Assembly (NCBI GenBank): GCA_018806915.1 | Contig: JAGKQI010000079.1 | Coordinates: 372,001-436,000 of the forward strand | Direction of reading: 5' to 3' | Origin: Phytophthora colocasiae | Lineage: Eukaryota > Oomycota > Peronosporomycetes > Peronosporales > Peronosporaceae | DNA: 64,000 nucleotides | Shown: piece after piece, positions 34,407 to 63,930 of the stretch | How positions within the stretch are numbered: position 1 is the stretch's first letter | How the letters are laid out: the number at the start of each line of letters is the position of its first letter | Made by a program: the position numbers and the translations under genes | Notes under the pieces: generated by a model | The model's database searches: none | Seen by the model: only the letters and a program-made list of their open reading frames with translations | Told to the model about the DNA's origin: nothing

Positions 34407-34947
34407 TGTCGCGCACCTCCCCGGCTGGGTCGGTACCTGTGGCTGTTTGGGTGAGTACAGTCCTGAGTGGGGCCTCGGAGTTTGTCGAAGTAGAGTCTTG
34501 TAGAACGCTTTTAGTAATATAAAAATACGTAAATTTGTTCTTGTCTTCTCTCGACCAGGGAAATTCGCAACTAAAAGAAATAGGGGGAGCGATAGCACTA
34601 CGCTCCTAGGGACGACACCTCGTCCACCTCGCACACCTGGGCCTATGACCTGCCATCCGTCCTTGCAGTAGGCACCTGTCGCCCAACGAGAGTAGCATCT
34701 TCCCACCTTCAGGGGCGTCCATTGGTCCGAGCAGCTCTGCGGACCTCCACGCTTCCGGATCACGAGCGTCTAGCGCCATCTTTCCAAGGGGCGCATCCCC
34801 CTAGTGATACGGTACCACAGGAACGGTACCGGGAGTGTAGCCGCTGGGTGGTGTAGCCATCCTACGGGTCCTAGGTCGGGTCCTCATCCTAGCTTGGCTC
34901 GAGCCCACCACCGCTGGAATGGGTCCTGCAATCCCGGGTACGGGACA
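34407..34947 (-). repeat. E1 3' LTR (left copy)
   Basis: 541 bp, with TGTC at one end and GACA at the other. Contains the last codons of the membrane-protein ORF (34801-34947). Preceded by CTTA. Confidence 0.93.
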
Positions 34948-36021
34948 TTCCCCCCGACTAGACGTTCGCCGTCCTCGGCGAACACGGTGTTGGAACTCGT
35001 CAGCCAAGCCCCGTAGCGATTCGACCATGTAGGCGTCGGCCGTCGTGAAGTGTTCCGGCATCGAAGCTCGACGAGCAGGAACGCTAGCGGCAGGTGAAGG
35101 TCCTTCTTCAGGCTCGTCCTCTGACGAGGCTGACTCTTCATTCCCTCCGCGATCACTCTCCTCACTAGACGCCTCTTCCTTGGGCATCACTTCGGGCCCA
35201 CGTAGACGTTGCAGGCTGGCTTCCTCCGCACGGCAACGCTCGTCAGCGTTCCTCTGCACGCTGTCCAAAGCTTCTTCAATGATTCCTCGAGGAGCAATCT
35301 TGCGCAGACGACCTCCACGGTCTCCCAGGCGCCATCCATGCGTTACTAGACCGACAACGGCCACGACTCCGGTGATATTATACCCCCAAGAAGTCCATCT
35401 CTCACCGTAGTTCAGCACATTCAGGACAATCAACACCACGACCACACCTGTGCTTCCGCACAGCACAAACTCCAGTAGATCGTAGAGCATCATTGGCAGA
35501 TGTATAGCCATCGAAAGCGTTAGAAGCGTTATCCAGCACAGTCCTTGCACGCCAGCATACACGCGTCTCCAAGCGTTCACGCTTCCCTCCCTCCAGGCCT
35601 GGTAGTAGCGTCTAGCTGACTCAGTAGTTTCCAGCAAAAGGTCGGGACCGTACTCTCCGAACGTGATCTGTCCCGCAACCCACCAACTTCGGTGCATTTG
35701 TCCATAGCGACCGTACTCGAGAGCGTTCTGCTCCAATACTTGAACAGGGACAGCAAAGAGAGCGCTCCACAGAGCAAAACCGTAGGCTAAACCGTTCAGC
35801 TGGCGCAAAGCAGGGTTCCGCATCACTTCCTGGTATCGCGCCGTGAAGTCAAGCCACATGCCACCGTTCAAACGAGTCACTCTCCACGCTTCAGCACCAA
35901 ACGTCCAGAACACATTCCTCAGGGGCGTGGTCACAATCCAGATGAGAACCGTCCCCAAGTAAACCGGCAATAGCTCCCAGCGAGCGTATTCTACGAGCAC
36001 AAAGCTCGCCCACTCGTCCAT
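34801..36021 (-). CDS. E1 multi-span membrane protein (env-position ORF)
   Basis: 406 codons from the ATG at 36021; the frame stays open to 36129, where a TTG lies. Hydrophobic segments occur around LLPVYLGTVLIWIVTTPL, GFALWSALFAVPVQVL, GLCWITLLTLSMAIHLPM, GSTGVVVVLIVLNVLN and NITGVVAVVGLVT, so five or so membrane spans are predicted. A charged Glu/Ser/Arg-rich tail of about 150 residues follows and finishes inside the 3' LTR. A homologue sits in the same place in E2 (51657-52877): the first spans share the pattern GxVLxWxxTxPLxN. It occupies the position of envelope genes in errantivirus-like elements but resembles no fusion protein I know. Divergent from the antisense gene. Confidence 0.65.
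   Translation of the reverse strand: MDEWASFVLVEYARWELLPVYLGTVLIWIVTTPLRNVFWTFGAEAWRVTRLNGGMWLDFTARYQEVMRNPALRQLNGLAYGFALWSALFAVPVQVLEQNALEYGRYGQMHRSWWVAGQITFGEYGPDLLLETTESARRYYQAWREGSVNAWRRVYAGVQGLCWITLLTLSMAIHLPMMLYDLLEFVLCGSTGVVVVLIVLNVLNYGERWTSWGYNITGVVAVVGLVTHGWRLGDRGGRLRKIAPRGIIEEALDSVQRNADERCRAEEASLQRLRGPEVMPKEEASSEESDRGGNEESASSEDEPEEGPSPAASVPARRASMPEHFTTADAYMVESLRGLADEFQHRVRRGRRTSSRGECPVPGIAGPIPAVVGSSQARMRTRPRTRRMATPPSGYTPGTVPVVPYH
34948..34958 (-). other. E1 polypurine tract
   Basis: On the minus strand GTCGGGGGGAA lies directly before the 3' LTR, the place where plus-strand DNA synthesis is primed. It confirms the minus orientation. Confidence 0.75.
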
Positions 36022-36348
36022 CAGTCCTTCTTGCGAGAGGTGAGACCAAAACGGAAATGGCCCCTTCGGCAACTTCCGACTCGAGCGTTCGGTCAGTTTT
36101 TCAGAGCTTATCGCACGCTGTAGTACCAAAACCAGTCACCTGGCATCATCGAAGGTATTTCCTTTCAACCATCGGGACTCGATAGTCCAATCCACCCACC
36201 AACCGTAGTTAGTAGTCAAAATCGGTCTATTTGGATCACACGCTTCACTTTCTCGGATAAGGCCTTCGCAAAGTCCCAACGAGAAAGGGGCTCTTTCTCA
36301 CATTACAGTTCCTTCCACGTCGAGAACACCACCGGCAACAACGTCGCC
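36022..36348. promoter_or_regulatory. E1 internal divergent promoter region
   Basis: A spacer of about 330 bp between the start of the membrane ORF (minus) and the antisense gene (plus). E2 has the same layout with 258 bp (52878-53135), so a bidirectional promoter inside the element is inferred. CTCACATT near 36297 resembles an oomycete initiator-like TCA motif, a weak indication. Confidence 0.4.
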
Positions 36349-37365
36349 ATGGGCAAGTCCAGGCTCGAGGAGGAATACGACGGGCTGTTCAAGCGTCTCG
36401 TCAAGCGCTACGCCGCGGAGGATGAGAGGGAAGAGAGGGAGGAGGAAGACATGTCGCCCACGCAGGCTCAAGTCGCCTTCTGGTCCGAGATGAGAGAGGT
36501 GTTGAGCGTCAACGAATGTTCCACCGGGCTCGACATCCTGGACGACATTGCCGAAGCTGTCATCGACCAGACAGGGTACGCTTCGGACGCGTTCGGGGGC
36601 CCCGTTCTCGTATTGCCCAAGCCTTCGCGTCAGCGTTTCAGCAAGAGGGCTGAGCTGCATCCCCGCTTCACAGGTCCTTCGCCCAAGAGCGCTTCATCCC
36701 GGGGCTCTTCCAAGACGACGTCCTCCCCTAAGTCATCTTTGTCCAAGAAGCGCAAGGAACGGTCTCGAAACTCTTCGCCTTCGTCCTCTCCGGAGCGCAA
36801 GAAGTCGTTCTTCACGGTCGAGCTCGCTGTCACCACGCCCCAAGAGATTCACGACGACCTTGAAGAGCTCTACAGCGACGCCGCGGAGAAGGGGAAGACA
36901 CCGTTCCAGTTGGCGTATCCGTGGGAAGGCTCGAGTCTCTGGTACGATCCTGAAGCGTACCCCGAAGTGTACCGAGCTCATTGGCGCTGGTGGAATCATG
37001 ATCGTCCCGTCTTCTGGGAATGGCAGCTTCACGCGCCTCTCAAGTCTTCAGCCGCACAGACTCGTCGTCGCAAGGCCAAGATGGAAGCGGTTGCCGGGCG
37101 CATGAAGTTTCTGAGCCTCTGCATCGAGACGTGGGGGTATTATAACTTCCTCCAGCTCCTCGAGGACTGCCACGACCCCAAGCTGCTGATGTGGTGGGGT
37201 GGTCAACCGGGACGGAACCAGTCGCGAGGCCCGGGTTACCATGGCCCGATCATCGACAGTCTCGTTTCTCTCCGTCGCAGGGACAAGGCCGAGTATGAAA
37301 AGAAGATGAAGCACGCCTTGGAACCGTTCTTCCTGAACCGCGACTCCTCTCTCCGACGTTCCTGA
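36349..37365 (+). CDS. E1 antisense gene, part 1 (novel conserved protein)
   Basis: 338 codons, opposite to gag-pol, with no recognised family. Two blocks are conserved with E2 (53136-54104). An N-terminal block of about 55 residues contains VLSVNECSTGLDILDD (E2: LLAINDASTGLEALDN). A C-terminal block at about residues 170-285 contains FQLAYPWEGSSLWYDPEAYP (E2: FRLAYPWSQQRAWYDPSEYP) and ETWGYYNFLQLLED. Between them lies a Ser/Pro/Lys-rich linker with KKRKERSR, a probable nuclear signal. The stop at 37363-37365 is followed, in the +1 frame, by part 2. The many aromatic residues in the second block suggest a folded domain. Function is unknown. Confidence 0.6.
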   Translation: MGKSRLEEEYDGLFKRLVKRYAAEDEREEREEEDMSPTQAQVAFWSEMREVLSVNECSTGLDILDDIAEAVIDQTGYASDAFGGPVLVLPKPSRQRFSKRAELHPRFTGPSPKSASSRGSSKTTSSPKSSLSKKRKERSRNSSPSSSPERKKSFFTVELAVTTPQEIHDDLEELYSDAAEKGKTPFQLAYPWEGSSLWYDPEAYPEVYRAHWRWWNHDRPVFWEWQLHAPLKSSAAQTRRRKAKMEAVAGRMKFLSLCIETWGYYNFLQLLEDCHDPKLLMWWGGQPGRNQSRGPGYHGPIIDSLVSLRRRDKAEYEKKMKHALEPFFLNRDSSLRRS

Positions 37366-38275
37366 TCTTCTCTACTGGACGGAGGCTTTGGACCCGGACA
37401 ACATCAAGGTGGAGAATCGTCTCTCCGACGAAGCGTTGGCCCGATGCTTGATCGACATCCAGTCCGATCGCACGCCTCGTAAGGGGTGGGCCGTGGACAC
37501 TCACCAAGGTACCTGGCTGTGTCTTCGCAAGAGTTCTCGCATCGTCGCGTTGGCTAAGAGCATGGTGAAGCAGCTCCAGAACGGTTCGTACAAGGTCTCC
37601 ACGACAGTTCCAGCGCTCGAGTCCTCCGAGGTGGTCGGCGGCTATGATCGTTTCCGACGCAAGGGCCGTCCGACAGCTCGCGGTACGGGGCGCCTGGATC
37701 CCAAGCTTCTCGTTCCCCACTTCAAGAAGTCCAGGTCTAAGTCGGGATCCTCGCCAAAGACGCGTTCCAGCGACTTCTCGGTGGCTCCGGACGCTTCCCC
37801 GGAAACGTCCCCTCCGGTCCCCAAGGCTGCGACTCCTCCGAAGTCTCCCAGGAACGCTTCTCCTGCCGTGACGCCCAAGTCCAGCCCCAAGAACGCTTCT
37901 CCTACTGCTTCAGGGAACGCCTCGCCGACCAAGTCCAAGCCGGCTTCCCCATCGTCACCCGAGGCGAAAGCGTCCACGCCGTCCAAGCCTAAGTCTCGCA
38001 GCCCTTCGCCGGCCAAGGCCGACTCCCCGAAGAAGCCGAGTCCCCCACCCAAAGTGTCCAACCGCGACCAGAAGGCCGAAGAAACTACCCAAGTCAAGAA
38101 GGAGACGTCAGATGACTTCCTGGGCAGCAGTAGCGACGAGAGTGATTCCGAGGCAAGCGAGAACGACGACGAGCATCAGTCCGACGACGAGTCTCACGAA
38201 GACGAGGACGAGGAGAAACCCGCAGCCAAGAAGCAAAAGATCCTCGACTTGTCGGGAGGTAACAGCACTTCGTAG
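37337..38275 (+). CDS. E1 antisense gene, part 2 (+1 frame, disordered tail)
   Basis: The frame opens at 37337 and has no ATG near its start, so it should be reached from part 1 by +1 frameshifting or splicing. The first 100 residues align with E2 part 2: VPDLL.....ALDP then LSDEALARCLIDI (E2: LSDVALARIVLDV) and the region around WLCLRKSSR. The remainder is a long Ser/Pro/Lys-rich tract (repeated KSPRNASP-like units), then an acidic Asp/Glu/Ser tail and a basic AAKKQKIL end. The composition suggests a nuclear, disordered regulator. No known family. Confidence 0.5.
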   Translation, partial: TATPLSDVPDLLYWTEALDPDNIKVENRLSDEALARCLIDIQSDRTPRKGWAVDTHQGTWLCLRKSSRIVALAKSMVKQLQNGSYKVSTTVPALESSEVVGGYDRFRRKGRPTARGTGRLDPKLLVPHFKKSRSKSGSSPKTRSSDFSVAPDASPETSPPVPKAATPPKSPRNASPAVTPKSSPKNASPTASGNASPTKSKPASPSSPEAKASTPSKPKSRSPSPAKADSPKKPSPPPKVSNRDQKAEETTQVKKETSDDFLGSSSDESDSEASENDDEHQSDDESHEDEDEEKPAAKKQKILDLSGGNSTS

Positions 38276-38754: not shown

Positions 38755-39537
38755 CTAGAAGAGCATGTCATCCTCGTCGACAGCGACGTTGGCCTCTGCC
38801 AACCGTGCACTGCGACGCAGTTCAGGTAGACCCTTCTCCTTTCGTCGAGCGTTATCGAATGCCTGCAGAAGCGTTCGATAGTTAGGAAGAAGCGTAGCAG
38901 CAGGCCTCCAGCTCACTTCGTAGGTAGCCAACAGTACTAAGTACTGCGTGACACCGTTCTCCTTCCGTCGAGCCAGGATGTCGACAACCGGGTTGCTCGT
39001 CCCAGAGACAGCCGTCTCTTCACCACCGATTACCAACCGTTCCACGTAGCTGGTCGAAGGTAGGTCGGCCTCCTCAAGAGGTCCTTCATCATCAATACCA
39101 GGACGGGACGTCACACCCTCAGGCACCTCCGTCGGGTACGGTCGACTCCAGCGTCCTCGAAAACGCTTCAAACGGTTCACGTTGATGGTCACCACCCGGT
39201 TCGGGTGCGAAGGGATCGCCACCCGGTACGCGTTCTCGCCCACCGTTCCTACAACGCGGTAGGGACCGTGCCAGGAGAAAGCTAACTTCTTGGTGGTACG
39301 CTCGCCTCTGCGAGCTCGGAAGTATTGGTAGACCCACACCGGGTCTCCTTCTTCGAACTTCACCTCCACCTGCTCCTCAAGGCGAGCAGCGTGCCGGTCC
39401 TGCGCCTTCAGCAGCTGACGCTCCACCATCCTTCTGGTGTCCCTCAGCGACAGGTACAAACGCCGTCGGTAGGCGGCCACTTCGTTGCTCTTCCACTTGT
39501 TATCCGTGTTTAGGAACGCTAGGTCTAGCGGTAACAC
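38755..39537 (-). CDS. E1 integrase C-terminus with degenerate chromodomain
   Basis: This continues integrase from the ORF ending at 39500, in a different frame; E2 is uninterrupted at the same place, so a frameshift near 39530 is inferred. It holds the GPY/F module (LAFSWHGPYRVVGTVGENAY) and, further on, VVDILARRKENGVTQYLVLL, then a tail LLQAFDNARRKEKGLPE. That is the layout of a chromodomain, but the W-x-G-Y...W-E-P core is replaced by ATYEVSWRPA. Ends at 38755. Confidence 0.75.
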   Translation of the reverse strand: MLPLDLAFLNTDNKWKSNEVAAYRRRLYLSLRDTRRMVERQLLKAQDRHAARLEEQVEVKFEEGDPVWVYQYFRARRGERTTKKLAFSWHGPYRVVGTVGENAYRVAIPSHPNRVVTINVNRLKRFRGRWSRPYPTEVPEGVTSRPGIDDEGPLEEADLPSTSYVERLVIGGEETAVSGTSNPVVDILARRKENGVTQYLVLLATYEVSWRPAATLLPNYRTLLQAFDNARRKEKGLPELRRSARLAEANVAVDEDDMLF

Positions 39538-41629
39538 GGGATCGACCGTACAGCGAGAAGAACGGCGAGTCCTTTAACGCTTCGTGATAAGAAGTACGAT
39601 AAGCGAACAGTACGCGCGGCAGATACAGATCCCAGTCGGTCTGGGCCTCATTCACGAACATCTTCAGCATGCCAATAAGCGTTCCGTTGAACCGCTCTAC
39701 CAATCCCTGAGTTTGCGGGTGGTAGGCGGCTCCGAACAGCTTCTTAATGCCAAGCGTTTCGTAAAACGAGCGCGCCAGCTCCGAAATAAAGTTGGATCCT
39801 TGGTCGCTAAGCAACCTCTCGGGCACCCCGTGCCGCGAGATAACTTCATTCACCATCGTCTCGACGAAGGTGATCGTGTCCAAGGCTTCGATCGCGAACG
39901 CCTCCACCCAGCGGGTGAAGTAGTCGGCAAAGACTAGAATAAACTTCTTGCCCCGAGGCGTCGTAACCAGGGGCCCGATAGCGTCCACGACCAGCAACGA
40001 GAACGGTCCAGACAGGTCGTGCACCGGCATCCTTTGCATCAGACCGTTCCGCCAGGGACGGTAGCCCTTGCCGCTGCCGCAGATCGTGCACTCGCGCACG
40101 TACTCCGCCACATCCTGCTTCCAGCCATGCCAGAACGCATGCTTGCGGACCTTGTCCAGCGTCTTCGTCACTCCGACGTGGGCCGCCAATACGTCCGTGT
40201 GGCAGTGGTGCAGAACGGTTGAGATGAACGGTAACGGGATCACTGGCACCTCAATAGAACTAGCAGGTCCCGCCCGGGCCTTCAAGTAGACCTTCCTCAT
40301 CAGCACGCCGTTCTTGACGGCATAGTTAGGAGCCATCAACAACGTCCGCGCCCGAAGCTGGGGATCAAAGGCGAGAGCCCCATCCTGGAGATACGCGATC
40401 ATCGCCAAGATCCACGGCGTCCGTTTCTGCTCGTCCAGGAACCGTTCCTGTTGCAGGCCGAACAAGTCCACTGGGGACACCAACAGTTGATCGTCGGGGT
40501 CAGGAGGAGCAGCGTTACGACGAGCTGACCCCCCGACCGGAATGGAACCACGCTCTCCAGCTTCACTGTCTCCCGTCCCATCCACCGTTCCGTGTTCAGG
40601 AACGGTTCTCCGCGTAGTATCGTCTCCTGGCACAGCAGTCCCCCCGACTTCGTCGGGACCATCCACCACAGGATCGGCCGCGTTAAGCAGATCCGCCATC
40701 GAAACGGCGTTAATAGTCACCGCATGTAGACGCGAGAGTCCATCCACGTGGCCCATAGCCGTTCCAGGCTTGTGGAACACCTTAAATCGTAGCTGGGAGA
40801 GTTCCATCGCCCACCGTGCCAATTTAGCGTTACTGGTACGGTTCCTCTCGTCAAAGACCCACGTCAACGCTTTGTGGTCCGTGTACAGGTCGAACTCACG
40901 CCGATCGAGGTAGCAACGGAACTTCCGCGTAGCCCAAACAATGCCCCAGCACTCAATCTCCGAGGTGCCGTTCTGTTTGTTGACCCAGTTCTTTTCGGAT
41001 CCAACTAGCAACTTGCTAGCGTAGGCTACCACGCGTTCCCTTCCTTCCACGGTCTGCATAAGACACGCCCCGATCGCCAACGTGGAGGAGTCCACGTACA
41101 GTTTAAAACGCTTCGAGAAATCCGGGTACACCAGGATAGGCGGCTTCACGAGCCTCCGTTTCAGCTGTCGGAACGCTGACTCGCAGTCCTCCGACCACTT
41201 GAACGGTACTCCCTTCCCCTTCAACCGTTCTATGGGCGCCGTGATAGCGGCGTAGCCCGGTATATAGCGACGGAAGTAGCTCGTAAGCCCCAGGAACGCT
41301 CGCACGGTATGAAGGTCGTGTGGGCTCTTCAAAGTCATCACTGACTTCACCTTCTCAGGGTTCGGCAGGATGCCGGACGGCGTTACAATATGACCCAAGA
41401 ACGCTACCTGGTCACGCCCCCACTTGCACTTCTTCATCTTCAATTTGAAGCCGGCCGCTCGGAAGCGTTCCAACACCTGCTTCAACCTTACCAGGTGCGT
41501 CGGGAAGTCCTCGCTGAAGACAACGCAGTCGTCCAAGTACACAAGGCACGTCCTCCACTTGAGGTCCACGAGCACGTTCTCCATGAGTCTCTCGAAGGCA
41601 GGCACAGCGTTACATAGGCCAAAAGGCAT
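39500..41629 (-). CDS. E1 reverse transcriptase (C-terminal part), RNase H, integrase
   Basis: 709 codons beginning MPFGLCNAVPAFERLMENVL. The polymerase catalytic box is CLVYLDDCVVFSEDF. RNase H follows (KLYVDSSTLAIGACLMQ, SEIECWGIVWATRKFRCYL, YTDHKALTWVF). Then a linker with VDGPDEVGG and the integrase: HHCC zinc region (HHCHTDVLAAHVGVTKTL ... CTICGSGKG), first catalytic Asp in LLVVDAIGPL, second in LLSDQGSNF, Glu in QGLVERFNGTL. The 5' side is a different frame from the ORF ending at 41632; the frame change lies close to 41680. Confidence 0.88.
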   Translation of the reverse strand: MPFGLCNAVPAFERLMENVLVDLKWRTCLVYLDDCVVFSEDFPTHLVRLKQVLERFRAAGFKLKMKKCKWGRDQVAFLGHIVTPSGILPNPEKVKSVMTLKSPHDLHTVRAFLGLTSYFRRYIPGYAAITAPIERLKGKGVPFKWSEDCESAFRQLKRRLVKPPILVYPDFSKRFKLYVDSSTLAIGACLMQTVEGRERVVAYASKLLVGSEKNWVNKQNGTSEIECWGIVWATRKFRCYLDRREFDLYTDHKALTWVFDERNRTSNAKLARWAMELSQLRFKVFHKPGTAMGHVDGLSRLHAVTINAVSMADLLNAADPVVDGPDEVGGTAVPGDDTTRRTVPEHGTVDGTGDSEAGERGSIPVGGSARRNAAPPDPDDQLLVSPVDLFGLQQERFLDEQKRTPWILAMIAYLQDGALAFDPQLRARTLLMAPNYAVKNGVLMRKVYLKARAGPASSIEVPVIPLPFISTVLHHCHTDVLAAHVGVTKTLDKVRKHAFWHGWKQDVAEYVRECTICGSGKGYRPWRNGLMQRMPVHDLSGPFSLLVVDAIGPLVTTPRGKKFILVFADYFTRWVEAFAIEALDTITFVETMVNEVISRHGVPERLLSDQGSNFISELARSFYETLGIKKLFGAAYHPQTQGLVERFNGTLIGMLKMFVNEAQTDWDLYLPRVLFAYRTSYHEALKDSPFFSLYGRSRVTARPSVPKHG

Positions 41630-41631
41630 AA

Positions 41632-54104: not shown

Positions 54105-54750
54105 TCTTCTCGAGCAGACTCAAGCACTGGACCCCACTCGCCGACCCCATCTCCGCCTCTCCGACGTTGCCTTGGCTCGCATCGTGCTTGACGTCAACGG
54201 AGGATCTCCTCCGACCGCAAGTTGGGTCGGCAACCGGTCCAGCGGCGTCTGGAAGCGCCTCCTCTCCGACCGTACCCTCCGTCCCGTCCAGATCGACGTG
54301 GCCAAGCGTGTCCTGAACGGTACGCACACCGTGGACTTTGACGACAAGCCGTTCAAGCTCTCCGATCTAGGTGACGACGACTCCGATTACGAAGACGAAG
54401 ACACTGGAGCGCCCACGATTCTTCCTCCGTCCCCGCCCATCGACGGAGCTTACCCAGCCGAAGACTCCGACCAAGAAGAAGGCTCCGACGAAGAACAAGA
54501 GGACCCTTCCCAAGAAGACGAAGAAGAAGACGAAGAAGAAGATAAGGAGACAAGCGACGGCCCCGACGACGACAAGTCCAGCGATTACCACGGCTCCGAC
54601 GAAGACAAGCCTCGCTCCACCAAGAAGGATGACAAGTCCAAGAAGTCGTCCCCCGAAGACAAGAAGCCCTCGTCCGAGTCGAAGAAGACGGGTGGCTCAC
54701 CATCTAGCGCCACCGCCGCTTCCCCCGCAGCCTCGCCTTCCACCAAGTAA
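54043..54750 (+). CDS. E2 antisense gene, part 2 (+1 frame, acidic tail)
   Basis: 235 codons from an ATG at 54043 that overlaps part 1 by 62 bp; the frame is open from 53899. Residues 1-110 align with E1 part 2 (SSVPDLLEQTQALDP, LSDVALARIVLDVN, VGNRSSGVWKRLLSD). The rest is Asp/Glu/Ser-rich, then Lys/Ser/Pro-rich, so disordered. The frame offset to part 1 is +1, exactly as in E1. It may be expressed separately from its ATG, or as a frameshift or splice extension. Confidence 0.55.
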   Translation: MSVPSLDPLSVDEDGYSSVPDLLEQTQALDPTRRPHLRLSDVALARIVLDVNGGSPPTASWVGNRSSGVWKRLLSDRTLRPVQIDVAKRVLNGTHTVDFDDKPFKLSDLGDDDSDYEDEDTGAPTILPPSPPIDGAYPAEDSDQEEGSDEEQEDPSQEDEEEDEEEDKETSDGPDDDKSSDYHGSDEDKPRSTKKDDKSKKSSPEDKKPSSESKKTGGSPSSATAASPAASPSTK

Positions 54751-56458: not shown

Positions 56459-57972
56459 CAGGCGGGTAAATTAACACGCCGTGTCAACATGCCGTCCTCG
56501 ACAGCGTATCTAGGCCCCATCTGTACTACACGAGCACGCAGGTACGGATCAAGCGGAAGCGCTCCGTCCTTCAGGTAGGCCACCAAAGCTCGCACCCACG
56601 AAATTTTCTGCTGTTCGGCCACGAACTGGTCGCGGTTCAGACCGAACCTATCCAAAGAAGACCTCGCGCGTTCCCCATCCTGCTCAACCTCAGCTTCCTC
56701 CCTCAACTCCTCGTGCGGCGGATCGTCTACGTGTCCGTCCGCCTGCTCTCCTACGGCCGCTCCGTCCATTTCATCGAAATCCGGCTCACCGTCCTTCTGC
56801 TCACCGTCCTCTGTCCCCCCGTAGTCAACATCACCGTCCAATTCGTACGGCTCCCCGACTGAAGGCGGAAGCGCGTCTCCGTCTTTCGGATTCAGCAGGT
56901 CCTGTATCGTCAGAGCAGCCACTCGCCCCCTTGGCAGCCTCGAGAGACCATCCACGTGACCTAGCGACGTCCCAGGCTTGTGATGAACCTGGAACTGCAG
57001 GCTCGACAGCTCCATCGCCCACCGTGCCAACTTAGCGTTTGAGGTACGGTTCCCAGGACTGAAGATCCACTTCAGGGCCTGGTGGTCCGTGAACAGATCA
57101 AACTCGCGCCGATCCAGGTAGCAGCGGAACTTCCTAGTCGCCCACACTACTCCCCAGCACTCGATCTCAGAGATGCCATCTTGGTTGTTTATCCAGTTCT
57201 TTTGCGACCCCGTGAGCAACTTGCTCGCGTAGGAGACGGCACGGTCACGACCGTCCACTTCTTGCATGAGGCAAGCTCCAACAGCGTACCGTGACGAGTC
57301 GACATACAACTTGAACCGCTTCTGACTGTCCGGGTACACCAGAATCGGTGGCTTCATAAGGGCACGTTTGAGCTGCCTAAAGGCAGACTCACAGTCCTCC
57401 GTCCACACGAACGGTGCATCCTTTACTTTCAACCGTTCCAAGGGCGCCGAAATCGAGGCGTACCCCGGGATGTAGCGTCGAAAGTAGCTAGTCAGTCCGA
57501 GAAACGAGCGAATCCCATGTAAGTCCACTGGTCTCCTCACATTCAGCACAGCCTTCACCTTCTCGGGGTTAGGAAGGACGCCCGAGGGCGTGACGATGTG
57601 TCCTAGGAACGCCACTTGGCTCCGTCCCCAGTGACACTTCTTCATTTTGAGCTTGAAGCCCGCCTCCCTCAACCTCGTCAGGACTTGGCGAACGCGTAAC
57701 AGGTGCGTCGGGAAGTCCTTGCTGAACACTACGCAATCGTCCAAATAAACTAGGCACACTCGCCACTTCAAATCCACTAGAACCGTCTCCATCAACCGTT
57801 CGAACGCGGGTACAGCGTTACAGAGGCCAAAAGGCATAACGAGCCATTCGAAGAGGCCGTATTTGCACGTGAAAGCCGTCTTTGATACACTGTCCCGCGC
57901 CATCGGTACGTTCCAATACCCGGATGCGATGTCCATGGTCGAAAACAACTGGGCACCCCCGAGCACGTCCAA
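56437..57972 (-). CDS. E2 reverse transcriptase (main part) and RNase H
   Basis: 511 codons. FSTMDIASGYWNVPMARDSV, FEWLVMPFGLCNAVPAFERL, and the catalytic CLVYLDDCVVFSKDFPTHLL. RNase H: KLYVDSSRYAVGACLMQEVD, SEIECWGVVWATRKFRCYLD and FTDHQALKWIF. An acidic linker (DGDALPPSVGEPYELDGDVD) leads toward integrase. The N-terminal side is cut from the rest of RT by a 1-bp-type deletion near 57973. Confidence 0.87.
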   Translation of the reverse strand: MDVLGGAQLFSTMDIASGYWNVPMARDSVSKTAFTCKYGLFEWLVMPFGLCNAVPAFERLMETVLVDLKWRVCLVYLDDCVVFSKDFPTHLLRVRQVLTRLREAGFKLKMKKCHWGRSQVAFLGHIVTPSGVLPNPEKVKAVLNVRRPVDLHGIRSFLGLTSYFRRYIPGYASISAPLERLKVKDAPFVWTEDCESAFRQLKRALMKPPILVYPDSQKRFKLYVDSSRYAVGACLMQEVDGRDRAVSYASKLLTGSQKNWINNQDGISEIECWGVVWATRKFRCYLDRREFDLFTDHQALKWIFSPGNRTSNAKLARWAMELSSLQFQVHHKPGTSLGHVDGLSRLPRGRVAALTIQDLLNPKDGDALPPSVGEPYELDGDVDYGGTEDGEQKDGEPDFDEMDGAAVGEQADGHVDDPPHEELREEAEVEQDGERARSSLDRFGLNRDQFVAEQQKISWVRALVAYLKDGALPLDPYLRARVVQMGPRYAVEDGMLTRRVNLPAWWGQHGR

Positions 57973-58622
57973 ATGTCATCGATCAACGGCATCGGGTAAC
58001 AGTCCTTCACCGTTACTGCGTTCAACTTGCGGTAATCTATACAGAATCGGATACCACCGTCCGGTTTCCTTATCATGAGAACGGGGCTAGCCCACGGACT
58101 GTTCGATGGACGGATCAGTCCCGCGTCCAAATACTGCTGTATCTCCGCTTCCATCACTTCTCCTTCCGCTACGGATACACGGTACGGTTGCTGTTTGATG
58201 GGCCGACTATCGCCCGTGTCAATCTCGAAGTGTAGCAGTTCCGTCCGTCCCGGCATCGCCGAAGACTCGACAAACAGGTCACTGAAATTGTCCAGCTCTG
58301 CTTCAAATATCCGCTTCTGTTCCTCCGTCAACCTCGACTGCGAAAAGTCAGCCTTGACCGTGGCTTTGTCAGGCGGCACTTCCGGCCGAGACTTCCGTTC
58401 CTTCTCAGCAATCTGTTCTTTAGGCGCTCCTGTCGCGGACTGCACTCGACCGTCCGTTTCCGTTGTCTCCGGGTTCCTCGGTACCGCTCCATCCTTCGTC
58501 TGCATCTGGCCGAAAGCCGACTCCGGAACGACCGAAGCGCACGCAACCGGCGTACCACGGCGAATCCACCGTTCCTCTGTAGATGCGTTACAGACTTCAA
58601 CTATGACTTGACTGTCCTCCAC
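57792..58622 (-). CDS. E2 reverse transcriptase (N-terminal part)
   Basis: The protein-like part is about 57975-58622: VIVEVCNASTEERWIRRGTP (matching E1 VVVEVCNAST), DLFVESSAMPGRTELLHFEI, PYRVSVAEGEVMEAEIQQYL, and SPVLMIRKPDGGIRFCIDYR to CYPMPLIDDI. After that the frame is lost and the last 50 residues are meaningless. It is in a different frame from protease upstream (break near 58615). Confidence 0.8.
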   Translation of the reverse strand: MEDSQVIVEVCNASTEERWIRRGTPVACASVVPESAFGQMQTKDGAVPRNPETTETDGRVQSATGAPKEQIAEKERKSRPEVPPDKATVKADFSQSRLTEEQKRIFEAELDNFSDLFVESSAMPGRTELLHFEIDTGDSRPIKQQPYRVSVAEGEVMEAEIQQYLDAGLIRPSNSPWASPVLMIRKPDGGIRFCIDYRKLNAVTVKDCYPMPLIDDIWTCSGVPSCFRPWTSHPGIGTYRWRGTVYQRRLSRANTASSNGSLCLLASVTLYPRSNG

Positions 58623-60772
58623 AGTACTTCAACGAGTGCGCCACACAGTGTGGGCGGAAGGGATACAGCGCCTTCAATGAGCACCGTAGCCTTCTCCTCC
58701 GGTGTCCCTACCAACTTTGCCATGACTAAAGCTTGTCCTTTAGGCGGCAGGCGTATTGACTTCACCATCGTCGCCATGTAAGCGTCCTGTACAACCATAC
58801 CCCCAAGGGGCAACACCTCGCCTGAGTCTTTAAGCAGGAGCTGACGCTCAGCCACATCAATGACCGCTCCGAACGCTCCAAGAGCGTCTACCCCCAGGAT
58901 GGCGTCCACATGCAACTGATCCGCGACTACCAAACTCAGCGAAATCTCTGCACTTCCCATTCGTAACGACAAACTCGCCCACCCTCGGATCTTCAACTGA
59001 TGTCCGGAGGAGCTCTTGACCGATCCTTCGTACGGCTTCAGCGTCTTCGTCGACCGTCCTAGCCGCTTCAGCACACGGCTATCTACCAAACTCAGTGTAG
59101 CTCCCGTATCCACGAGTAAACGAGAAGGCAAACACTCAATAAACCCACTTGATAACGCTTCGAAGTTCCCAACAGCACACACCACGCGTCGACCGTCTTC
59201 AACCACAGTACATACTTCCATTTCATCCATGTCTCCCTCCGACACGCCGAAACCGTCCGGCATTTCTACCGTGACAACCTCAACAAGGCCCGGACGAGGG
59301 GGAGGCGCAACCGTTCCAGGCGGCGGTCCCACCACGTCCACATAGCTTATCACATCTTCATCACTCAGCAACAGTTCAGCATTCATCAACACCTCCGCGT
59401 ACGGTCTAAACATGGCCTCGAAGTCAATCTCGGGCCGCTGTCGACCTCGTCTCTTAGCAGCAATCTCCGGGTCCTCTCTTACTTCTCTCCGTTCTATCAG
59501 TTTCTCCCAAATGATCGTCGCGTTCTCGTCGTAATATTCCAAAGCCGTCGCCTCCAACCGTCCCCAATCCAAATTCCGAACGTTCCTGGAGGCAGCGACT
59601 TCCTTCGCTAGTTTCCCCAGTTTGGTCAGGTCCGCCTTCGGAACTTTATCACGCAACGGAATGATTTCCTGTTGGAACGCTTCCCTCAGGAACAAGTACA
59701 CTGCGCGTTGGACCACGGTCCTCGCCAAAGTAGGTGAAACAACGACACGGTTCCCCAGGACGGATTCTGGCTCCGTAGCAACAGTCCCACACGGCACTTG
59801 GATGGACGCCGCGAAGTCCTCTAGCTGCGACAAGATGTTAGCACTGACTTCCTCTTCCGTAGTAGATCCTTCCTTTGGACTCGCGTCTAGCTCTCTAAAT
59901 GGTTTAGGTTTCCGCGCGCTGGGTTCCTTTAACACCGTTCGTCCCACTACCTGCACGACTGACGACTTGAAATCGCGGTTAGCACGCTTGGCTTCTTCAG
60001 TCTTCTCGAGCGTCTCGCGGAACCATCCTAGCCAGTACTCGGGCGAGTCGGCTCCATCTGTGGACGCTCGCCGAGTACGCTCGACTACTTCGAGCGGGAC
60101 GTCCAACAGAGAGGACAGTTCCTCATTAGAGGGCTCTCGTAAAGATGCTGCGTTCAACCGTATCCGTTCCATAGTATCAGCTTCATCCAAAGGGTGCAAA
60201 CGATCCTCAATTTCTTTTTCGTATTCTTCTGACTCGCTGAAAACCTCCGTTCCATCCAGGTCACCAGGTGTCCCTTCACAATCCCTGGACTCGAGAGCCT
60301 CAAGCTCCGCGTCCGTGAACAAGCAGTCTGTAGGGTGTTCCGCGGGTGACACGACGTCCGCTCCGTCCCCTACTTCGGTCCGTTCCGTTACTGAATCCGC
60401 TCGCCCCTCAACTTCGGTACCAGAGGCGTCGAAGATGTCGAACGACAACTCCTCCTCCGACAGCTCGTCATCCTCGAGTACTTCCTCCTCTAGTAGGCCG
60501 TCTTCGACCGCCTCTTCCAGCGTGGAGGCGGGCTCCGCCAACTCACGAGTCGCTTTACTACCCGCCTCTACTTCATCGACGAACCGTACTGTCTTCTGTC
60601 GACGTTCACCGTTCTCTTCCACACGGGCGTCTTCCTTTCTTTCCGTTCCTTTTTCTTCAATCTTCTTTTTCTTCTTTTGTCTCTTTTCTTCAGCCTTCCG
60701 CGCGGTTTTCACCGTCCCTCGCGGCTTCTTCTTTTTCTTCTTTTTCTCGTTCATCCCACTCTCCGTCACCAC
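58601..60772 (-). CDS. E2 pol N-terminal region with protease
   Basis: 723 codons. It starts with lysine-rich runs (MNEKKKKKKKPRG) that resemble nuclear localisation signals. An acidic region follows, then a linker similar to E1 (DSPEYWLGWFRETLEKTEEAKRANR; E1 TPEYWVKWYASTLAASEAAK). The retropepsin site is SRLLVDTGATLSLVDSRVLK, with the second half AILGVDALGAFGAVIDVA. The equivalent in E1 is broken into two ORFs, but here it is continuous up to a frame change near 58615. Confidence 0.82.
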   Translation of the reverse strand: MVTESGMNEKKKKKKKPRGTVKTARKAEEKRQKKKKKIEEKGTERKEDARVEENGERRQKTVRFVDEVEAGSKATRELAEPASTLEEAVEDGLLEEEVLEDDELSEEELSFDIFDASGTEVEGRADSVTERTEVGDGADVVSPAEHPTDCLFTDAELEALESRDCEGTPGDLDGTEVFSESEEYEKEIEDRLHPLDEADTMERIRLNAASLREPSNEELSSLLDVPLEVVERTRRASTDGADSPEYWLGWFRETLEKTEEAKRANRDFKSSVVQVVGRTVLKEPSARKPKPFRELDASPKEGSTTEEEVSANILSQLEDFAASIQVPCGTVATEPESVLGNRVVVSPTLARTVVQRAVYLFLREAFQQEIIPLRDKVPKADLTKLGKLAKEVAASRNVRNLDWGRLEATALEYYDENATIIWEKLIERREVREDPEIAAKRRGRQRPEIDFEAMFRPYAEVLMNAELLLSDEDVISYVDVVGPPPGTVAPPPRPGLVEVVTVEMPDGFGVSEGDMDEMEVCTVVEDGRRVVCAVGNFEALSSGFIECLPSRLLVDTGATLSLVDSRVLKRLGRSTKTLKPYEGSVKSSSGHQLKIRGWASLSLRMGSAEISLSLVVADQLHVDAILGVDALGAFGAVIDVAERQLLLKDSGEVLPLGGMVVQDAYMATMVKSIRLPPKGQALVMAKLVGTPEEKATVLIEGAVSLPPTLCGALVEVLWRTVKS

Positions 60773-60880: not shown

Positions 60881-61837
60881 TCAATTCCTAGGGGCCGCAG
60901 GCTGGGCCGTCGATCCAGCCGCCAATCCTTTCAAGGCAGCGATCGTCGGACACTGGGCCACTGGATGACCGTTCTCCCCACAGAAGTAGCACCTGAACCC
61001 TTGAGCGTTAGAGGGAGCTCCGTTCCGTCCTCCTAGTTGACCTCCATTATAAGGGAGCTCACACTCAGCTGCAACGTGACCATACTGATTACACCTCCGG
61101 CAAGTCATCGTCCTTCTCATACATGTAGCACGACCATGTCCCCTGTAGTAACATCGGCCACACACCGGTTCACCTTCCTGCGTACGGGTATCTTCCGCCA
61201 TCCTGATTCCACGATAGCTTCTGTTTCCGTCCCCAGTCGCAGGAGCGTTCCCTGCGGTAGTGGCAGCTACGGTCAGTGACCGTCCTCGAGGTGACGAAGG
61301 TCTAGCCTTGCGCTCGTCCATGAGTTGCTGCTGCCAAAGCTGCTGCTGGGCCATGAACGTCTGCAACTGCTGAGTCAATGCGTCCACCGTGGACGACGAA
61401 TGACCGTTCTTGTTACTTTCTGGAGCTCCGTCCGAGAACTCCTCGTCTTCCTCACTAGGCCGATGCATGTCCTTCGACATCAACCACTCACACGCCTCGG
61501 GAATGTCGCGAGCCGGGCTAGAATCCAAAGCAGCCAGCATCCGACGGTTCCTGAGACCTCGACGGAACAGTTTGTACCGCATCTGCGGGTTCGGATAGTC
61601 GAGCGAGTCGCACAAGTCCGTGACTCGATCGCCCCACTCTTCCACCGATTCGCCCCTCTGTCTCTTGGTAGTATGCAACCGATCCCAAAGCTCGTCAGCC
61701 GTCCTGCTCAGGAATTGGTTGTGAAAGCGAACCCTGAGAGTAGCAAATGTTTTGATCCTGGAGTTGCTCCACCACCGTTCCGCCTCTCTTCCTTTCAGCT
61801 TCTGACGGAACACCAACAACCGTTCTCGGTCGGGCAA
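60881..61837 (-). CDS. E2 Gag: capsid C-terminal part and nucleocapsid
   Basis: 318 codons. It begins inside the Gag domain (LLVFRQKLKGREAERWWSNS, RVRFHNQFLSRTADELWDRL, YPNPQMRYKLFRRGLRNRRM). A Gln-rich stretch follows. Then three zinc boxes: CGRCYYRGHGRATC, CRRCNQYGHVAAEC and CYFCGENGHPVAQC (the last two are C-x2-C-x4-H-x4-C). The first part of the Gag domain is in the neighbouring frame (61795-62382), with the break near 61833. Confidence 0.82.
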   Translation of the reverse strand: MPDRERLLVFRQKLKGREAERWWSNSRIKTFATLRVRFHNQFLSRTADELWDRLHTTKRQRGESVEEWGDRVTDLCDSLDYPNPQMRYKLFRRGLRNRRMLAALDSSPARDIPEACEWLMSKDMHRPSEEDEEFSDGAPESNKNGHSSSTVDALTQQLQTFMAQQQLWQQQLMDERKARPSSPRGRSLTVAATTAGNAPATGDGNRSYRGIRMAEDTRTQEGEPVCGRCYYRGHGRATCMRRTMTCRRCNQYGHVAAECELPYNGGQLGGRNGAPSNAQGFRCYFCGENGHPVAQCPTIAALKGLAAGSTAQPAAPRN

Positions 61838-62382
61838 CTGTCCTCGAACAGCTCCCAGAAGTCACGCGCCTTCTCCACAGTGGCCGTGTCTGAATAGAAC
61901 ATAGGCAACACCTTCATCACGTTTGACATCTTCTGCGTTAGGTCGTAGATCCTGGGCGGCGGAGGCGGTCTAGGAACGCCATACCCACCACCGTACTGTC
62001 CATAAGCTCCAGGGGGAGGTCCAACTAACACTCTTTGCCCTACCAGCACAGTCCTCGTCGGCACAGGTGGGACAGTAGGCTGTCTCCATCCTTGCGTCGG
62101 CGCAGCGTACGCTGTCCGAGGGACGCTCGTCTGGGTTCCAGCCAGGGATGGCCCCCGAGACACGCTCGTACGAAGAGGCGCTTGTCTAGGTGTACCCACT
62201 GGTTGGGTCGCAGGCGACTGAACGCCTATAGGAGTCGTTATTCCGGGCAGCGGTTCGGTCATCGGCGGGGCCGACGACGCAGCAGTCACCGCAGACCGGA
62301 GCGGTACGTCCTGCTGATCCCACGCGAACGGCGCAGCCGTCTCCGTCTTCACCTCATACGGGTGTTCCCCAACCCCATCCAA
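61795..62382 (-). CDS. E2 Gag N-terminal part
   Basis: 195 codons, Pro/Thr-rich, then MKVLPMFYSDTATVEKARDF and WELFE, the beginning of the Gag domain (E1: LQPFYSDDSTAERAGSFWES). The final 15 residues are out of frame. It overlaps the leader ORF (62354-63028) by 29 bp in another frame. Confidence 0.7.
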   Translation of the reverse strand: MDGVGEHPYEVKTETAAPFAWDQQDVPLRSAVTAASSAPPMTEPLPGITTPIGVQSPATQPVGTPRQAPLRTSVSRGPSLAGTQTSVPRTAYAAPTQGWRQPTVPPVPTRTVLVGQRVLVGPPPGAYGQYGGGYGVPRPPPPPRIYDLTQKMSNVMKVLPMFYSDTATVEKARDFWELFEDSCPTENGCWCSVRS

Positions 62383-63028
62383 GGGGACGGTCCGTGCGAC
62401 GCTTCTCCGTTCCCGTGTATCTCGAGATAAACCCTGTAGGCGTCCTCATAGGGACTTCTTCGACTACTTCCTCCTTCATCATCGGTTCTTCCGTAGGGTA
62501 CATCATGTGCGCTCGTTCATAGGCGTCGTAGTCCGGGTAACCTTCGTACATCTGCTGACCAGCGTACAGAGCGGCCAGCCGTGCCGAACCGTACACCGGA
62601 TCCATCAATGGAGCGCTCGGGACCGTACTCTCCACGGTCGGCTCCTCCGTTACTTCTTCCTTCTCGTCTTCCTCGTCGGCGGGTTCCGGCTCGTCCGGCT
62701 TCTCCTCCTCATCGCCGGCGTCAGCACCAGCCGTCAGGAGATCATCTCTCAACTCCTGCCTCAACGTCTCGCGACCAGCGGCCGTGCTGACTCCCACCGA
62801 CGGTTCATCATCTTCCTCTGCTTCTGCTCTCTTCTCCAGGCTAAGCGGGGCATCTCCACCGCCACTACGCGAAGCCTCTGCTTGGCGCGACCGTTCTTCC
62901 TCTTCCAGTCGCTCCACTTCGGACAGGACCCGGACCGTCTTCTGACCTCCGGCCCGTCCACCCCCACGACCACTGTTCCCTCGGCCTGGGGTACCTTTCC
63001 CTCCATCTCTTCTTCCAATCCCGGACAT
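62354..63028 (-). CDS. E2 leader ORF upstream of Gag
   Basis: 224 codons beginning MSGIGRRDGGKGTPGRGNSG, Gly/Arg-rich then strongly acidic (DEEEKPDEPEPADEEDEKEE). Tyr-rich YEGYPDYDAYERAHMMYPTE lies near the C-terminus. No family recognised. It may be the Gag N-terminus in an intact copy, as with the E1 leader. Confidence 0.5.
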   Translation of the reverse strand: MSGIGRRDGGKGTPGRGNSGRGGGRAGGQKTVRVLSEVERLEEEERSRQAEASRSGGGDAPLSLEKRAEAEEDDEPSVGVSTAAGRETLRQELRDDLLTAGADAGDEEEKPDEPEPADEEDEKEEVTEEPTVESTVPSAPLMDPVYGSARLAALYAGQQMYEGYPDYDAYERAHMMYPTEEPMMKEEVVEEVPMRTPTGFISRYTGTEKRRTDRPLGWGWGTPV

Positions 63029-63333
63029 TCTTCAAACTTCCAATACCTCCAAACTCCAATTCCCCAATACTTCACTTCCAATACTTCAACGCTTCACTTC
63101 CAACTCTTCCGGACCGTCTTCTACTTCTGACCTTGACTCTTCCGACCAATACTCCCGATACTCCAACTTCTGTTCCGTGGGAACTCACAAACTCGGGAAT
63201 TCCGCGCTCCCTGCGCCCCCGAGACTTTGCTTCTCAACCGTGACCGTCTGGACTCGATACCAGACCGCGTACACGCCGGGTTCTTCGACTCCACGGGCTC
63301 TTCCGACTTGCTCTTACTTGACAACGAATGCCG
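63029..63333. other. E2 5' untranslated leader
   Basis: A stretch between the primer site and the leader ORF, with short CTTCCAATAC-type repeats around 63037-63108. No gene is seen. Confidence 0.45.
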
Positions 63334-63351
63334 TACCCTGCTTCTCCACCA
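63334..63351 (-). other. E2 primer-binding site
   Basis: Minus-strand TGGTGGAGAAGCAGGGTA, two bases (CG) inside the 5' LTR. Same 18 bases as in E1. Confidence 0.8.
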
Positions 63352-63353
63352 CG

Positions 63354-63930
63354 TGTCGCGAGTCGGTCTTGGGCGGGACGGTAGACGCTGCGGGTTACAA
63401 GTAGAACGGAACGGTAGAGCTATAAAAGCGCACCACAAAAAGTAAAGAAAAATATAAAAAGCGATTATTCTTTGACTTGGGGCTTGTGCTGCGGTGCCCA
63501 AGGTAAATTCACGACTGACCTCCACCAGCACGCCCTTCCTTCACTGTTTTCCAACGTCTCACGTCCTCCAGAGTCCTCTTCCTTGTCCTTCCCGGGTCCG
63601 TACCTCCTCGACGGTACCACTCACCCCTTCCTCACGCATACTCGGGGCGCTGTTAAGCCCAGCGTAGTTCTAGTCCGTGTCTTCCGTCCTTGGCATCAGC
63701 TTACACGCAACCTGGCGCACGCTCCACGCTCTTTCTTGGCTGCGCAGATCTCGTTTCCTTAGCAATAGCGGCGCGCACTCACCCTCGTGCTGGCTGCGAC
63801 CGGGGCCGGCTCGAACAACTCCTCGCCATACATATGGTCTTCCGCAATGCGACGGGTCGTGGATCGGGTTTGAGAGGGGGAACGGTCGGGACCGTACCCG
63901 AGACGGTGGCCACCGTTCTCACTCGGGACA
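63354..63930 (-). repeat. E2 5' LTR (copy C)
   Basis: 577 bp; no difference from copy B was seen by eye. Followed by GCAA at 63931-63934, the partner of 50634-50637. Confidence 0.93.

Follow-up and report, generated by a model that had tools for sequence, protein, structure and literature searches.

Two diverged Ty3/gypsy elements of Phytophthora colocasiae carry, between pol and the 3' LTR, a two-gene module that is inherited together with pol, vertically, and both of its genes are protein-coding and subject to purifying selection. One gene, ORF-M, lies in sense orientation and probably encodes a multi-pass membrane protein, judging from its predicted structure, while the other, ORF-A, is antisense and has a probable nuclear product. 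The best explanation, to which we give about an even chance, is a Phytophthora Ty3/gypsy accessory module that combines a nuclear regulator (ORF-A) with a membrane protein in env position (ORF-M).

Two elements with a divergent gene pair

Both elements lie within the 64,000-nucleotide stretch of DNA that was analysed (the window), have the minus strand as their sense strand and are each bounded by a near-identical LTR pair. Their features are the following:

34407..34947, minus strand: E1 3' LTR (BLAST LTR pair; TG...CA)
34801..36021, minus strand: E1 ORF-M, 406 aa, sense gene between integrase and 3' LTR
34948..34959, minus strand: E1 polypurine tract (PPT) AGTCGGGGGGAA, within the ORF-M reading frame
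36022..36348, no strand: E1 spacer between the divergent start codons, putative two-way promoter
36349..38275, plus strand: E1 ORF-A, antisense, broken into frames 36349-37365 and 37388-38275
38755..44172, minus strand: E1 pol (PR, RT, RNase H, IN), split frames
44395..47984, minus strand: E1 gag region, split frames
48300..48840, minus strand: E1 5' LTR (BLAST LTR pair)
51252..51828, minus strand: E2 3' LTR (BLAST LTR pair)
51657..52877, minus strand: E2 ORF-M, 406 aa, sense gene between integrase and 3' LTR
51829..51840, minus strand: E2 PPT AGTCGGGGAGGA, where the ORF-M frame is unlike that of E1
52878..53135, no strand: E2 spacer between the ORF-M and ORF-A starts
53136..54750, plus strand: E2 ORF-A, antisense, broken into frames 53136-54104 and 53899-54750
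54935..60772, minus strand: E2 pol (PR, RT, RNase H, IN), split frames
60881..63028, minus strand: E2 gag region, with a zinc knuckle and Retrotrans_gag below cut-off
63354..63930, minus strand: E2 5' LTR (BLAST LTR pair)

The LTRs match over 542 bp with 1 mismatch in E1 and over 584 bp with 0 mismatches in E2 (BLAST) and have TG...CA termini; a PPT adjoins the 3' LTR, a hallmark of Ty3/gypsy elements, a PBS-like stretch follows the 5' LTR, and the 4-bp repeat CTTA flanks E1 on either side. The domain order PR-RT-RNase H-IN between two LTRs places E1 and E2 among the Ty3/gypsy elements. Their pol regions share 70-73% DNA identity (two alignable stretches), and between representatives the protein identity is 60.7% across 415 aa for the RT frame and 77% across 226 aa for the integrase frame; coordinates and identities thus agree with a preliminary description of two such elements with different LTRs (541 vs 577 bp), diverged pol and a divergent cassette between integrase and 3' LTR. 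The pol frames are split in both window copies, and a single frame of 1,982-2,713 codons is present in 15 of 86 related integrase rows, two of these 15 having a stop within the match; the breaks in the window copies may be recent mutations or assembly indels, which are indistinguishable here. In E1 gag, zinc-knuckle matches stay below the cut-off and occur in 1 of 4 frames scanned. The chromodomain PF00385 gave no match in E1, E2 and L072 frames (limit E 5, with filters dropping most matches above about 0.1). By eye, a chromodomain-like stretch is visible in L072.

The ORF-M proteins of E1 and E2 are 26% identical across 231 aa (E 9e-13), contain several hydrophobic segments, are all-helical in the structure model and bear 1 or 2 N-glycosylation motifs each. 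As a predicted membrane-protein gene that follows pol in sense orientation, ORF-M occupies the env-type position. In both elements its frame continues through the PPT into U3, so that the final 49 codons (stop included) in E1 and about 57 in E2 lie inside the 3' LTR. The PPT is conserved at the DNA level, with a near-invariant E1 sequence among E1b copies (L025 deviates by one base), while the ORF-M frame through it differs between E1 and E2.

ORF-A of E1 and E2 shares 36% identity across 320 aa in the first part (E 3e-55), where the blocks LAYPW..WYDPxxYP and STGLxxLD pointed out earlier are present in both, and 30% across 60 aa in the second (E 3e-8). The gene had been described as two-part; this reading, like that of a spliced antisense gene, was rejected, since many relatives have a single open frame (715-766 codons from stop to stop in five E1-group copies, 609-651 in ten E2-group copies), and both window copies are therefore broken. 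In those intact copies that were measured, the product has a length of about 540-640 aa; across 24 copies picked for openness the frames run open for 536-641 codons. Its features are basic clusters, a conserved helical core, an S/P-rich linker and an acidic tail, the last 130 residues being net acidic in 8/8 proteins examined. A basic motif, KR...KKxR, is shared by E2 ORF-A and proteins of P. capsici, P. infestans and P. sojae, and no instance turned up in E1b or P. rubi ORF-A; in E1 and G3 ORF-A the loose pattern matched other stretches. The structure model of ORF-A is weak (pLDDT 56.9).

The homologue search proposed in the preliminary description retrieved named relatives of the two proteins in Phytophthora only, in seven named species, and in P. 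infestans and P. rubi the homologues of both carry neighbouring gene numbers. Neither protein had a match above noise among Pfam, PDB sequence profiles or PDB folds; fold searches found nothing for ORF-M against pdb or for ORF-A against pdb and viral libraries, and viral contigs (A3, A4) and phage records (P0005 only) yielded no relatives. Among 29 ORF-A homologues scanned (E <= 0.5), none matched TRP28 (PF04195) or bZIP families.

Co-inheritance with pol and purifying selection

The cassette recurs throughout this genome: ORF-M diverges from 80 of 88 placed ORF-A 5' ends, counting only matches that reach the N-terminal part of each protein, no ORF-A 5' end could be placed near 7 of 88 ORF-M 5' ends, and the two genes are on opposite strands in 24/24 chosen loci. 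ORF-A lies downstream of 72 of the 86 related integrase C-termini (from 149 rows; the 63 weaker ones, comprising fragments and distant integrases, were set aside), and the 14 elements without an ORF-A match indicate that the module is not required in cis by every copy. It is kept in four diverged groups, most of it is lost in deletion derivatives at several loci, and one locus, L073, has ORF-A alone. ORF-A and integrase agree in class in 71 of 72 elements, the one exception being a decayed E1 copy that contains two stops, and the order of divergence from E1 is the same for pol, ORF-A and ORF-M (one representative per group). On these grounds copying by recombination between E1 and E2 was rejected.

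Pairwise omega was computed for 24 loci at which the ORF-A frame is open (5 E1, 9 E1b, 10 E2), excluding the other L009-L060 loci as broken, partial or duplicate and ORF-M pieces of less than 180 codons; pairs with undefined dS were kept outside the medians, leaving 28 of 45 for E1 vs E1b ORF-M. Purifying selection is strong where the two proteins are best conserved (omega 0.06-0.08): pooled E1b values are 0.073 for the ORF-M body (six of nine copies) and 0.059-0.078 for three ORF-A core windows (eight of nine copies). Values are higher in the rest of ORF-A in this pool: windows as far as column 480 give 0.117-0.228, the S/P-rich linker 0.43-0.52 and the C-terminal end 0.265. For comparison, pol gives 0.05-0.06 between E1 and E1b, with saturated dS. 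Reverse-strand control frames of ORF-A have omega 1.10, 0.295 and 2.355 vs 0.175 in the coding frame, and chance ORFs were rejected on frame conservation and omega. Selection on the LTR-encoded ORF-M tail is weak at most (0.609). Higher values were also obtained: a median of 0.444 for ORF-M within E1, where, as in E2, several rows are truncated frames that inflate pN; 0.62 for E2 vs G3 ORF-M; and 0.30-0.54 for E1 or E1b vs E2, with saturated dS. The selection implied by the preliminary description is thus borne out by dN/dS well below 1 in both genes, although values for single ORF-A pairs go up to 0.948 within the E2 group. Since further elements with the cassette exist, dN/dS is not near 1 in both genes and a single capture spread by recombination is unlikely, its interpretation of a cassette kept by selection is supported; silencing control, packaging or transmission would be candidate functions.

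Possible roles of the two genes

According to the favoured reading of an accessory module, for which we infer the internal promoter and both protein functions, the spacer would be a two-way promoter from which both genes are expressed separately from the LTR transcript. ORF-A would enter the nucleus, as suggested by its basic clusters, helical core, S/P-rich linker and acidic tail, and there target the chromatin or transcription of the element that encodes it, for instance to counter silencing or to set a copy-number feedback. ORF-M may reside in an internal or the plasma membrane and traffic or dock particles or Gag. With both products potentially acting in trans, copies that have suffered deletions would still be able to spread. 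Grande gene23 offers a precedent for a nuclear antisense product with its own promoter (PMC7264820).

The evidence from INR motifs for such a promoter is mixed. The spacer has a median apparent length of 328 bp. Of 24 loci analysed for INRs, L047 gave no spacer. The INR-like motif YCAYTYY (PMC3599244) is located at -39 of the ORF-M ATG in 4/5 E1 copies and at -47/-48 in 7/9 E1b copies, with a shuffle chance of 0.06-0.15 for each position; copies within a group are related, and these amount to about two independent cases. On the ORF-A side, INRs are not above shuffles (5/5 E1, 4/9 E1b; shuffle chances 0.36-0.73), and E2 spacers have the motif on neither side in 9/9. TCATTCT, the commonest P. 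infestans INR, is found upstream of ORF-A in both group-3 loci looked at; the group-3 locus L074 has two INRs on the ORF-A side vs a shuffle chance of 0.41 and none on the ORF-M side within 200 bp. Spacer identity between E1 and E1b (0.507) is not above the shuffled control (mean 0.463, max 0.568), the E1 row being L010, a poor choice with a truncated ORF-M.

A rather unlikely alternative casts ORF-M as a non-canonical envelope or fusogen-like protein with ORF-A as regulatory partner; as env-bearing Ty3 elements do, these elements would then pass between cells or nuclei, for instance during hyphal fusion or mating. The sense gene in env position, its hydrophobic segments, the frame through the PPT into U3 and the strong constraint on the membrane body are consistent with this. 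The derivatives without most of the cassette, present at several loci, have a parallel in env-less retroviruses. There is also a precedent for unconventional transmembrane proteins of LTR elements in sORF2 (PMC11952523). However, ORF-M has several hydrophobic segments rather than a single anchor and few N-glycosylation motifs, no likeness to fusion glycoproteins emerged from Pfam, PDB-sequence or PDB-fold searches, and named homologues within one genus give no sign of wide horizontal spread.

It is unlikely that the two genes have separate roles and share a site with no functional link: L073 with ORF-A alone and the few unpaired ORF-M 5' ends would fit this, but the divergent pairing (80/88) and the agreement of ORF-A with the integrase class (71/72) argue against it. 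Quite unlikely is a single retrovirus-like module, in which ORF-M would be an unrecognised class of multi-pass protein for transfer or particle release, tied to replication via the PPT/U3 frame, ORF-A a nuclear anti-silencing factor encoded on the opposite strand and L073 a domesticated host ORF-A. That antisense transcription itself is the function, through dsRNA or siRNA feedback with the protein secondary, is improbable and disfavoured; ORF-A is convergent with pol, so that overlapping RNA is possible, and such a role has been proposed for plant antisense ORFs (PMC7264820), but the open frames and the amino-acid-level constraint in the core windows speak for the protein. Very improbable is that the cassette stems from host genes picked up a single time and carried since then as an unused passenger; the absence of known domains and the 14 elements without an ORF-A match could be adduced for this, and low omega in both genes, retention in four diverged groups and homologues in seven species, in two of which both bear neighbouring gene numbers, speak against it.

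Relation to known systems

Plants provide the best-described antisense accessory genes of LTR elements, whose function is not settled; the oomycete gene has no detectable sequence relation to the plant antisense proteins. Here it is paired with a constrained membrane gene, and tens of intact, broken and deleted natural copies in one genome make the role of antisense retrotransposon proteins testable. Judging from the two protein families, dozens of Phytophthora 'hypothetical proteins' are probably retroelement genes. As the preliminary description had supposed, the literature searched contained no description of paired sense membrane and antisense genes in such elements.

Among LTR elements, errantiviruses carry env, and the open frames of HIV nef and MMTV sag extend into the 3' LTR. 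Like nef and sag, ORF-M is a sense gene that crosses the PPT into U3. An additional membrane-protein gene next to gag and pol is likewise present in the bdelloid Vesta/TelKA elements (TM-ORF3 type; PMC5408684) and, as sORF2, in the Drosophila MDG1 group (PMC11952523). Unlike sORF2, which is described as short, ORF-M has about 400 aa and multiple helices without a Pfam or PDB match, and, in contrast to the extra genes of the env-carrying or TM-ORF3 elements, it has an antisense partner and extends into U3. HTLV-1 HBZ is, as recounted in PMC11963269, antisense and nuclear, as predicted for ORF-A; however, ORF-A begins at the internal spacer and not in the 3' LTR, and no sequence or domain relation to HBZ, nef or sag was found. 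E1 and E2 are oomycete Ty3/gypsy elements like Archon and Chronos, groups defined by an added archaeal-type RNase H (PMC5348765), in the main text of which the word 'antisense' occurs 0 times; in the pol frames scanned, only the retrotransposon RNase H models PF17917 and PF17919 and no second RNase H matched, with a model set that has no dedicated aRNH model. Among the nearest parallels are the plant Retand, Grande and RIRE2 elements of the Ty3/gypsy type, in which an antisense ORF sits between pol and 3' LTR (PMC7264820), Grande and Retand having been named by the preliminary description too; E1 and E2 share this ORF, the long pol-3' LTR region and the presence of the antisense gene in most copies. 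Yet Retand antisense proteins carry TRP28, for which none of the 29 ORF-A homologues scanned gave a match, and, according to PMC11963269, none of the sense ORFs of the region in Retand encoded putative transmembrane regions, whereas in the E1/E2 family a sense membrane gene accompanies the antisense gene.

Layout of E1, E2 and their neighbourhood

Both Ty3/gypsy elements, E1 and E2, show the usual domain order of protease, RT, RNase H and integrase.

34407-48840, minus strand: E1, Ty3/gypsy, LTR pair with one base difference
51252-63930, minus strand: E2, Ty3/gypsy, LTRs identical

In element sense, pol is followed by the antisense ORF-A, a spacer and the sense membrane-protein gene ORF-M, the stop of which lies within the 3' LTR. 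As the preliminary description held, pol has diverged between the elements, with 60.7% identity in the RT frame (415 aa) and 77% in the integrase frame (226 aa) of representatives, yet both carry this cassette. ORF-M is 26% identical between them (231 aa, E 9e-13) and ORF-A 36% (320 aa), with 30% over 60 aa in its second part; since the RT and integrase frames are more alike than this, the two accessory genes change more quickly than pol does. The plus-strand gene had been described as two-part, but ORF-A runs as a single open frame, counted from stop to stop, through 715-766 codons in five copies of the E1 group and 609-651 codons in ten of the E2 group; in the 24 copies analysed it spans 536-641 codons from the likely ATG. 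Judged from these frames, the two-part ORF-A of the window is a broken gene, through either a real break or an assembly indel. The window copies, which are young because their LTRs are near-identical, also have a split pol; 15 of 86 related integrase matches lie within one frame (1,982-2,713 codons), and in two of these 15 a stop interrupts the match.

The ORF-M frame of E1 and E2 stays open across the polypurine tract (AGTCGGGGGGAA / AGTCGGGGAGGA) and the LTR start TGTCCCG and continues into U3. The tract is kept as DNA, its reading frame differing between E1 and E2. Among seven inspected copies of the related group E1b, six read the tract in the E1 frame, while in the seventh (L025) it is one base shorter and the ORF-M tail is in another frame; at the group-3 (G3) loci L072, L074 and L076 the corresponding terminal stretch is GRGVCPVPG. 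Both window proteins have RRGRR immediately before the tract; synonymous differences between E1 and E2 at four of the five codons of this motif mean that RRGRR is kept as protein.

Three 87-bp repeats stand head-to-tail inside the E1 gag region (44983-45243). Left of E2, positions 50567-50806 match the LTR-encoded ORF-M tail at 83% on the opposite strand, and bases resembling an inverted LTR end adjoin the element (region 50567-51246), which makes it probable that a related LTR in inverted orientation is next to E2; no clear target-site repeat was seen for E2. In a third, short Ty3/gypsy element (7939-13226), two identical repeats of 230 bp, one at 7939 and one at 12997, flank RT, integrase and a chromodomain match just below cut-off; there is no space after integrase for the cassette. 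The window also holds a hAT-type transposase ORF (3127-5706), a P5-type ATPase ORF (18966-22919) and a single 3,212-codon ORF (23449-33087) that matches the bromodomain, PHD and PDZ domains and, below cut-off, DDT and FYRC; upstream of this ORF lies a near-threshold FYRN match (33230-33967).

Pairing, inheritance and loss in the genome

Protein searches of the genome (92.5 Mb, 105 contigs) gave at least 148 matches to E1 ORF-A and at least 126 to E2 ORF-A, in overlapping sets, and at least 104 and 79 to E1 and E2 ORF-M, respectively; the cassette matches fall into four main groups, E1, E1b, G3 and E2. The divergent pair recurs across the genome: at 80 of 88 placed ORF-A 5' ends an ORF-M 5' end diverges within 2 kb (median apparent distance 328 bp), at one further (C105) the partner match overlaps by a few bases, and seven have no partner. 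The strands are opposite in all 24 loci chosen for analysis. An ORF-A match lies within 6 kb downstream of 72 of 86 integrase C-termini. With integrase classed by identity to E1 (≥93, 80-92, 70-79 and <70%) and ORF-A by its group, the classes agree in 71 of the 72 elements, the sole mismatch being a decayed E1 copy, and, with each group represented by one element, pol, ORF-A and ORF-M show the same order of divergence from E1 (E1b, G3, E2). For the most part, therefore, the cassette has travelled with pol by inheritance rather than moving between elements, which argues against a single capture spread by recombination, the alternative named in the preliminary description.

Ten of the 14 elements lacking ORF-A have group-3 integrases. 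At L076 (G000:C43:388000-393500) integrase is followed by a short stretch that is shared with the 3' side of L074 ORF-A, and then by the end portion of ORF-M; this locus has lost the remainder of ORF-A and the beginning of ORF-M and keeps the ORF-M tail and LTR side. To the right of this tail lies an ORF that has a stretch rich in threonine and proline and, at its C-terminus, a hydrophobic segment. The L076 stretch is matched in one piece by C94 (G000:C94:212146), in two adjoining or overlapping pieces by C28 (304975), C63 (39669) and C29 (451081), and as two pieces with a gap of about 220-370 bp, too short for ORF-A, by C6, C50, C36 and C58. It is thus probable that copies lacking most of the cassette have spread, with segmental duplication as the alternative; such spread suggests either help in trans or a cassette that is dispensable in some cases.

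Two partnerless ORF-A loci were examined. Most of ORF-M is missing from L075, where the LTR-side tail is kept; the other holds a lone gene.

L073:1459-2955 (G000:C43, 194258-195754): lone ORF-A, intact, 498 aa

Within about 1.5 kb before and 0.9 kb after this gene no ORF-M and no convincing pol (best E 0.92) were found, and only the coding part matches other loci. It is 61% identical to L072 ORF-A over 483 aa, with a dN/dS (omega) of 0.134 at saturated dS, and is a candidate domesticated gene.

Selection and predicted protein features

Nei-Gojobori omega was taken within E1b, where dS is below saturation. The medians, 0.147 for ORF-A and 0.118 for ORF-M (36 pairs each), are well below 1, in line with the selection proposed earlier. 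Pooled by region, ORF-M gives 0.066-0.073 in the membrane body, 0.18-0.19 in the middle part and about 0.6 in the LTR tail. Windows of the ORF-A alignment give 0.059-0.078 at columns 181-300 and 361-420, 0.117-0.228 in the remaining windows up to column 480, 0.43-0.52 in the S/P-rich linker and 0.265 at the C-terminal end, against 1.10, 0.295 and 2.355 in three reverse-strand control frames. Constraint on the best-kept parts of both proteins thus comes close to that on pol (0.05-0.06 for E1 versus E1b, dS saturated). Within E1 and within E2 omega is noisier (medians 0.19-0.44) because of low divergence and several truncated ORF-M frames. There is good support for the structure of the cassette and for selection that maintains it.

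ORF-M is predicted to be all-helical (pLDDT 74.6, pTM 0.52), with three to six hydrophobic segments, some overlapping, in a Kyte-Doolittle scan of seven proteins; ORF-A has a predicted helical core and low confidence elsewhere (pLDDT 56.9). Searches of both against Pfam families, PDB sequences and PDB folds gave nothing above noise (ORF-M folds: none below E 0.6), nor did ORF-A match viral folds, and a nuclear location of ORF-A is therefore proposed from composition. A KR...KKxR cluster is present in ORF-A of E2, P. capsici, P. infestans and P. sojae and absent from that of E1b and P. rubi. In all eight proteins examined the C-terminal 130 residues have a net negative charge. A regulatory nuclear protein (ORF-A) paired with a membrane trafficking protein (ORF-M) is our best guess, and the boldest reading still tenable is an envelope-like role of an unconventional kind.

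The P. infestans initiator is given as YCAYTYY, most commonly TCATTCT, in PMC3599244. YCAYTYY precedes the ORF-M ATG by 39 bp in four of five E1 copies and by 47-48 bp in seven of nine E1b copies (shuffle chance 0.06-0.15 in each case, copies within a group being related). The group-3 spacers of L072 and L074 have TCATTCT upstream of ORF-A. On the ORF-A side YCAYTYY is not commoner than in shuffles, and it is missing on both sides in all nine E2 spacers. These motifs are at best suggestive of a two-way promoter.

Relatives and known systems

The entry of ORF-M into U3 resembles retroviral nef and sag, in layout only. The named homologues of the cassette proteins are all from Phytophthora, two of the lists covering the best-sharing candidates and four hits carrying no name; those nearest to the E2 proteins share 63% identity for ORF-A and 57-61% for ORF-M. 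Both have homologues in P. infestans, capsici (for ORF-M, species from the genome-project gene label), sojae, rubi, fragariae and fragariaefolia, and ORF-A also in cactorum. Adjacent gene numbers for the two proteins (PInf_020360/020359, PInf_004499/004498, PR003_g11696/g11697) suggest the same pairing in P. infestans and P. rubi.

No oomycete or ambisense equivalent of the cassette was found in the open-access literature searched, and "antisense" has no occurrence in the main text of an oomycete LTR-element paper (PMC5348765). The earlier view that the pair is not a described architecture stands within that literature; an antisense ORF after pol is by itself known in plants. According to PMC11963269, the Retand antisense ORFs carry TRP28, and the region has no sense ORF with putative transmembrane regions. 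Antisense ORFs in plant Ty3 lineages, named in the preliminary description, are borne out by PMC7264820: Grande, RIRE2, Retand and PvRetro13 carry them at the same position as E1 and E2, and the Grande product is nuclear and has its own promoter (PMC7264820).
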